From Anaerosolibacter sp. (GTDB lineage: Bacteria; Bacillota; Clostridia; Peptostreptococcales; Thermotaleaceae): a stretch of DNA of 64,000 bases. Shown piece after piece: positions 31,732-36,240 of the stretch. The position numbers and the translations under genes were made by a program. Within the stretch, counting starts at the first letter, position 1, and each line of letters starts with the position of its first letter. Location of the stretch: contig NZ_JARBTM010000007.1 of assembly GCF_029240175.1 (NCBI RefSeq), positions 1 through 64,000 on the forward strand, read 5' to 3'. Below the pieces are notes generated by a model. It worked only from the letters and a program-made list of their open reading frames with translations. It did no database searches and was not told the origin of the DNA.

Positions 31732-33627
31732 CTATTTTCCAAGCATCTCGCGAACATGGCTGACAACGCCATCAACATCCAAACCATAGAGCTTAAACAA
31801 GTCTTCATTGTCGCCATGCTCTATAAATTGATCTGGAAAACCAAGTAACTTGAAGTTTCTGTAAATCTTATTTTCATTTAATAATTCCAAAACTTGACTC
31901 CCAAATCCACCCTTTATCAGATTATCTTCTAAGGTAATGACATGGGCACAAGCGGAAGCTTCAGTTAAGATGCTTTCCTCATCCAAAGGTTTTACAAATC
32001 TAGCATTAACGACAGTACAATTTATATTGTCTTTTTGCAGTCGTAAAGCTGCCTCATAAGCTGTCCGGACCATATTTCCTATAGCCAATATGCAGATGTC
32101 CTTACCCTTTAAAAGGGTCTCAGCCTTCAGTGAATCTATTTGATAATTTGCTGATATCTCTGAAAAATCATCGCTTTCACCCCTAGGGTAACGAATTGCA
32201 GACGGACCATCGTGGCTAAAAGAAAATTCCATCATTGCTTGAAGTTCCTTGCCATCTTTTGGGGCCATGATCACTATATTAGGGACATGAGATAAAAAGG
32301 AAAAATCAAAAATACCATGATGGGTTTCCCCATCATTGCCTACCAATCCTCCACGATCTATACAAAACAGTACGGGTAAATTCTGAAGACAGACATCATG
32401 GATAATTTGGTCATAGGCTCGCTGTAAAAAGGTCGAATAAACTGCAAACACGGGTCGCAGTCCCTTGGCAGCTAAGCCGGCAGCAAAGGTAACCGCATGC
32501 TGCTCTGCGATACCAACATCAAAAAAACGTTCAGGATACATGGATGCAAACTCACTTAAACCTGTACCTGAAGGCATGGCTGCTGTAATTCCAACAATTT
32601 TTTCATTTTCTTTCGCAAGATTGCAAAGAGTTTTCCCAAATACGGAGGAATAGCCTTCTCGCGATTGTGCAGCGATAGCCTTACCTGTTTCGATCTTAAA
32701 AGGATTGACACCATGAAATTTGTCAGGGTTTTTTTCCGCAAAATCATAGCCTTTGCCCTTTTTGGTGAGTACATGTATGAACACAGGACCGCGTATGTTT
32801 TTAGCTCGGTTCAGTACAATGGTTAGCTCCTTCAAATCATGACCATTTACAGGTCCTAGATAAGTAAACCCTAATTCTTCGAAAATGACCCCTGGTACCA
32901 AAAAGTACTTAAGACTATCTTTAGCTTTTTCCGCTGTCTTAAACATAGCTTTACCTACAGCAGGAATTTTATTTAATATGTTTTGTACATCATTTTTAAC
33001 TTTAAAATAGGCAGGATCAGATCTTAAACGATTTAAATATTTTGAAAGCCCTCCAACATTCTGTGAAATAGACATTTCATTGTCGTTAAGTATCACGATA
33101 AAATCTGTATTTGCATGCCCTGCATGGTTTAGTGCTTCAAAAGCCATGCCTCCAGTTAATGCACCATCACCAATGATAGAAACGACTGCATGTTTCTCCC
33201 CTAAGATGTCTCTTGCTTTTGCCATCCCCAATCCAGCAGAAATAGAGGTGCTGCTGTGGCCTGTCTCAAACGCATCATGTTCACTCTCACATCGTTTTGG
33301 AAAGCCACTCATACCTTTATGTTTTCTTAAAGAGTGAAACAAATGCTTTCTTCCGGTAAAAAGTTTATGTACATAAGCCTGATGGCCAACATCCCATATA
33401 ACTTTGTCCTTGGGGCTGTTAAAGACACGATGAATCGCAATTGTTAGTTCAACTACACCTAGATTTGAAGCCAAGTGACCACCTGTTTTGGAAACACTTT
33501 CAATCAAAAAATTTCTAACCTCTTTACCGAGTTCCTGAAGTTCATTATTACTCATTTTTTTTAGATCAGCAGGTGAATCAATTTTTGAGATCAAGCCATT
33601 CACATTACTCATCTCTCTTTCTCTCAT
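31732..33627 (-). CDS. dxs: 1-deoxy-D-xylulose-5-phosphate synthase (start may be Met at 33612)
   Basis: GDGALTGGMAFEALNHAG, DIGIAEQHAVTFAAG, GGLVGNDGETHHG. Confidence 0.97.
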   Translation of the reverse strand: MREREMSNVNGLISKIDSPADLKKMSNNELQELGKEVRNFLIESVSKTGGHLASNLGVVELTIAIHRVFNSPKDKVIWDVGHQAYVHKLFTGRKHLFHSLRKHKGMSGFPKRCESEHDAFETGHSSTSISAGLGMAKARDILGEKHAVVSIIGDGALTGGMAFEALNHAGHANTDFIVILNDNEMSISQNVGGLSKYLNRLRSDPAYFKVKNDVQNILNKIPAVGKAMFKTAEKAKDSLKYFLVPGVIFEELGFTYLGPVNGHDLKELTIVLNRAKNIRGPVFIHVLTKKGKGYDFAEKNPDKFHGVNPFKIETGKAIAAQSREGYSSVFGKTLCNLAKENEKIVGITAAMPSGTGLSEFASMYPERFFDVGIAEQHAVTFAAGLAAKGLRPVFAVYSTFLQRAYDQIIHDVCLQNLPVLFCIDRGGLVGNDGETHHGIFDFSFLSHVPNIVIMAPKDGKELQAMMEFSFSHDGPSAIRYPRGESDDFSEISANYQIDSLKAETLLKGKDICILAIGNMVRTAYEAALRLQKDNINCTVVNARFVKPLDEESILTEASACAHVITLEDNLIKGGFGSQVLELLNENKIYRNFKLLGFPDQFIEHGDNEDLFKLYGLDVDGVVSHVREMLGK

Positions 33628-34264
33628 GTTTTATACTTCGTTTTTTATTGGGTAAAATATTTATTTTGAATTTTGAATGAAGGAAATATAGTACTTTTCC
33701 CACCGAAAAAACAATTTCTTTAGATTTTCTCAGGGCAATTTCCTTTGCAATAGCTTTACCGCCGACGGTTACTGCAGCTACAGCACCACTTACAAGGATG
33801 GCGAGGAGGGATATATTGATTTGACTGACATCGCTTAGTTTTAATATCAATATAGCACCAGCTGCGCCGCTTACTATGCCGCAAATGTCACCGATGACAT
33901 CATTACAAAAATTAGCTACAGGTCCAGCATTCCTCACCAAAGTTACAGCGTGCTTTGCACCAGCAATCTTATTTGCAGCCATAGAGTGAAAAGGCGTCTC
34001 CCTGGCTGAAGCTACTGCAATACCGATGAGATCAAAAAAAATTCCTATAAATACAATCGTGACAAGTATGATAAATGCTAGAATCAGGTTTACACTTCTC
34101 AATATTGTATCAGAAACAAAGCTCATGGCCATTGCTAGAAAGAAAGTCCATACTGTTATGAGTATTACCCATTTTGAATTATATAAACGAATCCAAGACT
34201 TACCCATTTGTTTTCTTCGATGGGGTGCTTCCCCAGATTGCTCTTTCATATTATATCCACCCAC
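33605..34264 (-). CDS. oapA: OapA-like OLE-RNA-associated membrane protein
   Basis: Small polytopic membrane protein (MGKSWIRLYNSKWVILITVWTFFLAMAMSFVSDTILRSVNLILAFIILVTIVFIGIFFDLIGIAVASARETPFHSMAANKIAGAKHAV..); directly downstream of the noncoding interval and upstream of dxs, as in known OLE loci. Confidence 0.85.
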   Translation of the reverse strand: MGGYNMKEQSGEAPHRRKQMGKSWIRLYNSKWVILITVWTFFLAMAMSFVSDTILRSVNLILAFIILVTIVFIGIFFDLIGIAVASARETPFHSMAANKIAGAKHAVTLVRNAGPVANFCNDVIGDICGIVSGAAGAILILKLSDVSQINISLLAILVSGAVAAVTVGGKAIAKEIALRKSKEIVFSVGKVLYFLHSKFKINILPNKKRSIKHERKRDE

Positions 34265-34290
34265 AAATTAGATTAGTTTATCTCTATAAA

Positions 34291-34834
34291 GGCTGATAGC
34301 AAATGCTATCAGCCTGGGAGTTCAGTATATCAAGTGGCAGCATATTGAGTAAATTTTGCGGCTTAGGTCTAGTAGGCTTTCCCAAATAGATACTGGTTTG
34401 TCGCCAAATCAGCGGTTTCCCTTCAAATCTATTTTTACCTTGTTGCCAGAGATAAGACTAGATTACCACTTAGTCCGCACTGTAATCCCCAATATGCTTC
34501 TAAAGGAACAGTCTAGGAGTTTTCCTCGACAGTCAAACTATTTCTTAGCCTCTTTTGCAGAAAAGGTTTCGAATAGCAATAACATTATACTTATTGGCCG
34601 ATAAGCATAATGCCTGTTACCTATTATCCGCCAAATCCCACTCAAGGCAGGCTACGCTGCATGTAGCACACAACCAAAATGCATTGGAACCACTATGCAG
34701 GTTTATCCAAAGACCTGACCATCGGTCATCTCTTTGGTCTCCACGGTAAGAGGGTCATCGCCCACATGCCATTGTGGATCGCCCCCATCACCTTACTCCC
34801 AGCACCGACCCCCGACTGGGCGTCAGCAGTTAAT
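34291..34834 (-). ncRNA. ole: OLE RNA (ornate, large, extremophilic RNA); 5' and 3' limits approximate
   Basis: About 545-nt ORF-poor, relatively GC-rich interval in the ispA-[PAP2]-ncRNA-oapA-dxs order; many short inverted repeats; 3' hairpin GGCTGATAGCA..TGCTATCAGCC followed by TTT on the minus strand. Confidence 0.87.
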
Positions 34835-35278
34835 TCAAATAAGCATATTCGCTATCACAATTCCCAAGAGAGCGCCAGCGAAAACTTCAACAGGTGTATG
34901 ACCGATTAACTCTTTTAATCGCTGTTCACCAATGGGCTTGTGTTTATGACGATCCTCAATCATTTTGTTCAAAATAATGGCTTGTTTGCCAACTGCTCTT
35001 CTTACGCCCGAAGCATCATACATGATGATAAGCGAAAAAGAGAGTGCAATAGCATAGGCAACGGAGTCCCAGCCACTTTTAATGCCTACTGCTGTAGATA
35101 TTCCCATGACGAGAGATGAGTGGGAGCTAGGCATACCACCAGAACCAACAAACCGGTAAAGATTTAATCTCTTATCCTTTATCAAGCTATGGATAACTTT
35201 TAACGCCTGAGCGATAAACCAAGCAATGAGTCCAACGATAAAAACATCATTTTTCATGATTAGTTCGAAAAAGTGCAC
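34835..35278 (-). CDS. Divergent PAP2 family protein (YuiD-like)
   Basis: FVGSGGMPSSHSSLVMGISTAVGIKSGWDSVAYAIALSFSLIIMYDASGVRRAVGKQA..IGHTPVEVFAGALLGI. Confidence 0.93.
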   Translation of the reverse strand: MHFFELIMKNDVFIVGLIAWFIAQALKVIHSLIKDKRLNLYRFVGSGGMPSSHSSLVMGISTAVGIKSGWDSVAYAIALSFSLIIMYDASGVRRAVGKQAIILNKMIEDRHKHKPIGEQRLKELIGHTPVEVFAGALLGIVIANMLI

Positions 35279-35295: not shown

Positions 35296-36240
35296 CTAAT
35301 AATCACGTTTTACGAGATAATCTGCTAGTTCCATAAAGAATGCAGACTTTGTATCGAATTCTTGAAGCACTGCTAAGCTTCTGTGAAATAGTTCATTGAC
35401 CTTAGCAATAGATTGGTCAATGCCATGAATAGATGGATAGGTGGATTTATTGTTTTCAATATCGCTTCCAATCTTTTTGCCTAGCTTTTCCTCATTGCCG
35501 AAGATATCCAATAAATCATCGGTTATCTGAAAACCTAATCCAATACACTTGCCATACTCTGTTAAGCATTTCAATGTATGGTCATCTGCACCACCGATGA
35601 TTGCTCCGGCTCTGATGGCAGCGATAATCAAGGCTGCAGTTTTATGATTATGAATATAGTCTAGGGTCTCCCCGTCAATTTGCTTGTTTTCAGAAGCCAA
35701 ATCTACAACTTGGCCGCCGATCATGCCGTAGATACCTGCTGCTCTAGTGATTTCTTCCATGGCCATAATCTTTCGTTTTGAATCAGCACCACCTTGAAGA
35801 ATGGATTTCAGCATAATTTCATAAGCATAGTTTAGCAGTCCATCACCGGCAAGTACTGCAATTCCTTCTCCATAAACTTTATGGTTTGTAAGCTTTCCCC
35901 TGCGAAAATCATCGTTATCCATGGCAGGTAGATCGTCATGAATCAAAGAGTACGTATGAATCATTTCTATAGCGCAGCAAAAAGGAAGAACATCCTTTTC
36001 ATTTCCCCCAACAAAATCAGATGCGGCAAGCATAAGGATTGGACGCAGTCGCTTTCCACCAGCAAAAACACTGTAACGCATAGATTGAAAAATAATGTCT
36101 TGATGGCCTATTTCTTTTGGGAGAATTTCCTCAAGGGCAAGATCAATTTGTTCTGCTTTTTTATGGAGTAGATTTTTAAAGTCCATTTTTATCCACCTCA
36201 AGATCCTTGTATTGAAATTCTTCATATTTTCCTGAATCAT
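35296..36240 (-). CDS. ispA: Polyprenyl (farnesyl/geranyl) diphosphate synthase
   Basis: GGKRLRPIL, IHTYSLIHDDLPAMDNDDFRRGKLTNHKVYGE, GFQITDDLLDIFG. Confidence 0.96.
   Translation of the reverse strand: MIQENMKNFNTRILRWIKMDFKNLLHKKAEQIDLALEEILPKEIGHQDIIFQSMRYSVFAGGKRLRPILMLAASDFVGGNEKDVLPFCCAIEMIHTYSLIHDDLPAMDNDDFRRGKLTNHKVYGEGIAVLAGDGLLNYAYEIMLKSILQGGADSKRKIMAMEEITRAAGIYGMIGGQVVDLASENKQIDGETLDYIHNHKTAALIIAAIRAGAIIGGADDHTLKCLTEYGKCIGLGFQITDDLLDIFGNEEKLGKKIGSDIENNKSTYPSIHGIDQSIAKVNELFHRSLAVLQEFDTKSAFFMELADYLVKRDY

Follow-up and report, generated by a model that had tools for sequence, protein, structure and literature searches.

An OLE RNA gene lacking its promoter and 5' domain beside an intact oapA in an Anaerosolibacter assembly

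The genome assembly of an Anaerosolibacter sp. (GCF_029240175.1) carries an OLE RNA gene from which the promoter -10 box and the entire 5' domain are missing, while the adjacent gene for the protein partner OapA is intact. We consider it probable that this is a recent natural loss-of-function allele of ole whose oapA has stayed whole. The locus lies within positions 1 to 64,000 of contig NZ_JARBTM010000007.1, the whole stretch analyzed here, which we call the window and to which all coordinates refer unless stated otherwise.

An Rfam cmscan search of the whole window gave a single match above the gathering threshold, to OLE (RF01071) at 34318-34938 on the minus strand, with 403.9 bits and an E value of 3.4e-115, which exceeds the curated 50-bit threshold of this covariance model and is not a chance result. 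The match falls in a minus-strand interval between a yuiD-like gene and a small membrane-protein gene that a preliminary description had singled out as a candidate OLE-OapA locus. This non-coding interval is real, holding only short spurious open reading frames; its GC content is raised as described, reaching 0.46-0.49 across the 5' part of the RNA, and the xseA-xseB-ispA and dxs-tlyA-argR-recN surroundings are as claimed, the full order xseA-xseB-ispA-yuiD-OLE-oapA-dxs-tlyA-argR-recN-spoIVB agreeing with published ole clusters (PMC12265935). On the upstream side lie ispA, encoding farnesyl diphosphate synthase (35296-36240, minus strand; NF045485), and the yuiD-like divergent PAP2 gene (DUF212; 34835-35278, minus strand; Pfam PF02681), which now abuts the OLE remnant; dxs (31732-33627, minus strand; TIGR00204) lies downstream of oapA. 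OLE is indeed present in the proposed RNA interval of 34265-34834, but the conserved RNA proper is narrower, running from 34829 down to about 34332, and the extension of the Rfam match to 34938 reflects a forced global alignment across the yuiD coding sequence. The remnant at 34332-34829 (minus strand; RF01071) retains the apical P5 and the strands of P6-P9 and P10-P15, and both the P9 loop with its palindromic GGCC and the OapB-site region (P12.2/P13) are present in the Rfam alignment. On this sequence evidence the interval is an OLE RNA of the known family. An assembly-wide search found this minus-strand copy and no second one. Copy number varies within the family of the host: one member (G013) has three OLE genes, scoring 516, 494 and 398 bits, of which only the first is beside oapA, the one oapA found in that genome.

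The downstream gene (33605-34249, minus strand) encodes an intact protein of 214 aa, identified by homology to the Halalkalibacterium halodurans and Anaerosolibacter carboniphilus proteins. It is 86% identical to OapA of A. carboniphilus, 69% to that of Thermotalea metallivorans and 45% (E = 6e-52) to that of H. halodurans DSM 497, whose locus itself carries OLE at 538.6 bits. The suggestion that this gene is OapA was thus upheld, with one amendment: the start is more likely the ATG at 34249 than the GTG at 34264 proposed earlier, since A. carboniphilus does not preserve the GTG frame. The protein contains DVIGD, a form of the DxxxD motif that marks OapA (PMC11332333), within a block, ANFCNDVIGDI, that is invariant across seven aligned relatives. 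It has no Pfam or NCBIfam match at an E value of 0.001; a weak similarity to CNNM (E = 0.6) fits the published distant relation between OapA and CNNM domains. With a dN/dS of 0.07, oapA is, as judged from substitution patterns, under strong purifying selection. The OLE/OapA identity therefore stands on the covariance match, the homology and motif of OapA and the published cluster order. That the OLE RNP locus is whole, as the description implied, is not supported: a deletion has taken away the promoter and the 5' domain that all comparable OLE genes possess.

The OLE score is ~127 bits below that of A. carboniphilus (530.6 bits) and also below the range of 486-554 bits elsewhere in the family, taking the best OLE copy per genome, because model positions ~1-100 land, weakly aligned, on the 3' end of yuiD. 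In a pairwise alignment with A. carboniphilus, the junction (34829-34832, minus strand) joins TTTGAATT to CTGCTGACGCC through AA, these two nucleotides standing in place of 126 nt of A. carboniphilus sequence, a net loss of 124 nt. This deletion is the sole indel longer than 2 nt in an 11.8-kb collinear alignment of about 80-84% identity. Relatives have, downstream of the yuiD stop, a -35/-10 promoter, then GTGGYGCAGTATTCTAGTCAG...GGCGGGGCTAAAAATCCGTC...AAGGGCACATCGATGAAGTTCCTGG, and then the P5 hairpin; in the window, ATTTGAATT, in which the yuiD stop overlaps the -35 element, is joined by AA alone to CTGCTGACGCCCAG, which lies within the left arm of P5. The -10 box of ole, its start and its first ~90 nt are thus deleted, while the -35 element and the yuiD stop codon are retained. 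The junction contains no run of N, and microhomology of at most ~3 nt is possible. The 5' segment is lost from the assembly rather than moved, since BLAST with the segment of the congener returned nothing significant in it apart from the 25 nt that follow the junction and a covariance model of the 5' 90 nt of OLE (R1, built from 56 OLEs) found no match there; a moved or split 5' domain elsewhere in the assembly was rejected on the same grounds.

The loss stands alone among relatives. We sampled 395 genomes of the order; OLE passes the cut-off in 80, and R1 matches 79 of these at 91-114 bits, the exception being the genome of the window; even in a genome where the 5' part of OLE sits on another contig end (G043), R1 still finds it. 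Among the loci that we fetched, the 5' motifs occur in every OLE with a readable core except that of the window, one further locus (L124) being truncated where its contig stops. Of the 47 conserved columns on the 5' side of the junction, the window matches 11, which is the chance level. Because the 5' domain (P1, P3 neck and P4 A-rich loop) is deleted, we class this copy among broken or truncated ole genes and not as an intact OLE. The family is known; the allele, as read from one assembly, appears to be new.

The deletion also bears on transcription. In 80 of 96 relatives, the 70 nt upstream of OLE contain a sigma-A-like promoter (at least 9 of 12 matches), compared with 9% of control stretches; its usual form is TTGANN-17-TATAAT ending 13-20 nt before GTGG. 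Across these 96 loci, the promoter is strongly positioned directly before OLE, and its -35 often overlaps the yuiD stop codon. The window keeps a -35-like TTGAAT (34833-34838, minus strand) that likewise overlaps the stop codon, without the deleted -10 box. Consensus scans for promoters and terminators in the window alone were at chance level, and it is the comparison with relatives that is informative. Polycistronic transcription has been described for the H. halodurans cluster (PMC12265935), so read-through of the remaining RNA is possible. At the other end, the 3' hairpin named in the preliminary description is a perfect 10-bp stem at 34291-34314 (minus strand; GGCTGATAGCATTTGCTATCAGCC followed by TTTAT, with the arms GGCTGATAGC and GCTATCAGCC closing an ATTT loop), a motif found at no other position in the window and present after OLE in many relatives. 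It may act as a terminator or a processing site. The stem, GCTGATAGC/GCTATCAGC, is conserved across several genera, beyond what an ordinary terminator needs.

Covariation over 96 full-length OLEs provided the helices in which the deleted segment pairs with downstream strands. P1 (AGUGGC/GCCACU) is paired at 0.94-1.00, and the P3-neck helix (AUUUCU/AGAAUU) at 0.95 against 0.48 expected; a GGCGGG/UCCGUU hairpin with a UAAAAAU loop, and the base of P5, vary little and are supported by conservation more than by covariation. The deletion removes the 5' strands of P1 and P3, the whole P4 hairpin with its A-rich loop, the basal strand of P5 and, probably, the 5' strand of P4a. These P-numbers are our own assignments from covariation and the text, not the figures, of the structural papers, those of P2 and P4a resting on complementarity only; the UAAAAAU-loop hairpin is equated with the P4 of the cryo-EM structures, and the neck with P3, by position and A-rich loop. 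The P4 loop is a bridge of the OLE dimer, and P3 has been proposed as a membrane-spanning element (PMC12286853, PMC12265935), while the reported binding sites are near P2 and P4a for OapA and near the P5 base for OapC (PMC9723947). The deleted stretch would thus include the reported OapA sites at P2 and P4a, if the published sites carry over. The sequence now in place does not compensate: the base of P5 is not restored by the 20 nt that now precede it (-15.6 kcal/mol versus -27.3 in the native RNA, and weaker than shuffles at -17.4 +/- 1.5), and the yuiD tail was rejected as a substitute partner for the orphaned P1, P3 and P4a strands, its pairing being no better than that of shuffled tails.

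What is left of the RNA, about 510 nt, shows no sign of decay. None of the 159 conserved columns 3' of the junction (those identical in at least 95% of relatives) has changed in the window, and the remaining RNA carries 7 substitutions on the window branch versus 15 on that of A. carboniphilus. In oapA and neighboring genes, dS is 1.0-1.7. A remainder evolving neutrally for a fraction f of the branch (~0.6 substitutions per site) would be expected to show ~95f changes at these columns, and zero changes imply an f below about 3%. The absence of decay means that the loss is very recent, that the remainder is still constrained, or that the deletion is not real.

We favor the first of these. One small deletion would have recently destroyed ole, rejoining the sequence inside the left arm of P5, so that no RNA presumably starts at ole any longer and a 5'-truncated remainder would be made at most through read-through of the ispA-yuiD transcript. 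Such an RNA would be unable to form the P3 neck, the L4 dimer bridge and the P2/P4a contact with OapA, and the OLE RNP would accordingly be absent or not anchored in the membrane. The other genes of the cluster, oapA and dxs among them, are intact, so OapA would still be produced but in the absence of its usual RNA, and too little time would have passed since the loss for either ole or oapA to decay. It is less likely that a full-length OLE exists in the organism and that the draft lost 124 nt at a conserved stretch that is hard to assemble, or reports the consensus of a minor strain. The assembly lacks the ribosomal-protein region, nusG and rplX included, a gap that also bears on the OLE RNP partners OapB and OapC, and is therefore probably a metagenome bin; contigs of four other genomes (G032, G043, G044 and G184) end inside OLE, at positions ~62-132, so the region is difficult to assemble. 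The undecayed remainder would also follow from an artefact, as would the presence of oapA, given that known genomes nearly always have ole and oapA together or have neither (PMC11332333). Nevertheless, conserved k-mers usually break contigs and do not yield clean deletions, and here the junction is free of N with hardly any possible microhomology, the neighboring genes are all intact with no other comparable indel over 11.8 kb, and the missing segment is on no other contig.

The third reading, a functional 5'-truncated OLE that is transcribed with the operon and works through P5-P9 and P10-P15 without P1-P4, strikes us as improbable. The unchanged conserved columns, the fewer changes than on the branch of the congener, the purifying selection on oapA and the existence of natural OLEs without P7/P8 (PMC11332333) speak for it, but the conservation is equally well explained by a recent deletion. 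Moreover, the 5' domain is kept in all 79 other OLE-positive genomes of the sample, the lost parts are the very elements reported as OapA sites (P2, P4a), L4 dimer bridge and P3 neck (PMC12265935, PMC12286853, PMC9723947), the promoter is gone and no replacement pairing was found. We give equally little weight to the broader idea of a lineage whose OLE/OapA system works without the P1-P4 neck domain, be it through OapA alone or through a functional 3' part of OLE.

The genome of the window also differs from its relatives in having two CNNM/CBS/CorC genes, versus one in each of the 12 other OLE-positive family members. The second, an MpfA-type gene in the assembly (G000:C33:64190-65443), is ~40% identical to the resident copy of the family and was probably acquired, since it shares 80-83% identity with genes of other families. 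It is suggestive given the reported anticorrelation of OLE and MpfA, yet multiple copies are common in the order: by our own tally, two or more CNNM matches occur in ~18 of the 80 OLE-positive genomes, among them the two closest sources of the extra gene. The extra gene is therefore not evidence that OLE was replaced, and replacement of OLE by MpfA was rejected.

The roles of the P3 neck, the P4 dimer loop and the P2/P4a OapA sites are debated, including whether P3 crosses the membrane. A natural allele without these elements and without its promoter offers an existing test both of OapA acting on its own and of the capacities of the RNA that is left; it would be a natural mutant, open to testing, of an RNP that is still unsolved, rather than a new system. 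With intact OLE (RF01071), as in H. halodurans and A. carboniphilus, the window shares the genomic context, the 3' ~510 nt, the 3' hairpin and oapA downstream, and it keeps all the conserved nucleotides from the P5 loop to P15; unlike intact OLE, it lacks the promoter -10, the 5' strands of P1, P2 and P3, P4, the 5' strand of P4a and the base of P5. OLE variants 1 and 2 (Fernando and Breaker, 2024; PMC11332333) are likewise natural OLEs with missing parts, but in those P7-P9 are reduced or absent, as often is the OapB site, parts that the window keeps while losing the 5' domain. Defective ole genes have also been noted in organisms without OapA (PMC11332333). A comparable case in our sample is a genome from another family of the order (G114), which has a relic between yuiD and dxs, in an ispA-yuiD-dxs context, around contig position 7399-7469 on the minus strand (G114:C51:5400-9400): a promoter, ~70 degenerate nucleotides of the OLE 5' end and the 3' hairpin remain, while the rest of ole, including its middle, and all of oapA are gone. 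There ole is disrupted at the same chromosomal place, but the opposite part, the 5' end, is retained. In the published cases, as in G114, oapA has been lost, whereas in the window it is intact. The window, with a defective ole and a constrained oapA, would represent an earlier stage of the loss seen in G114, and together the two suggest an order of loss in which ole goes first and oapA later.
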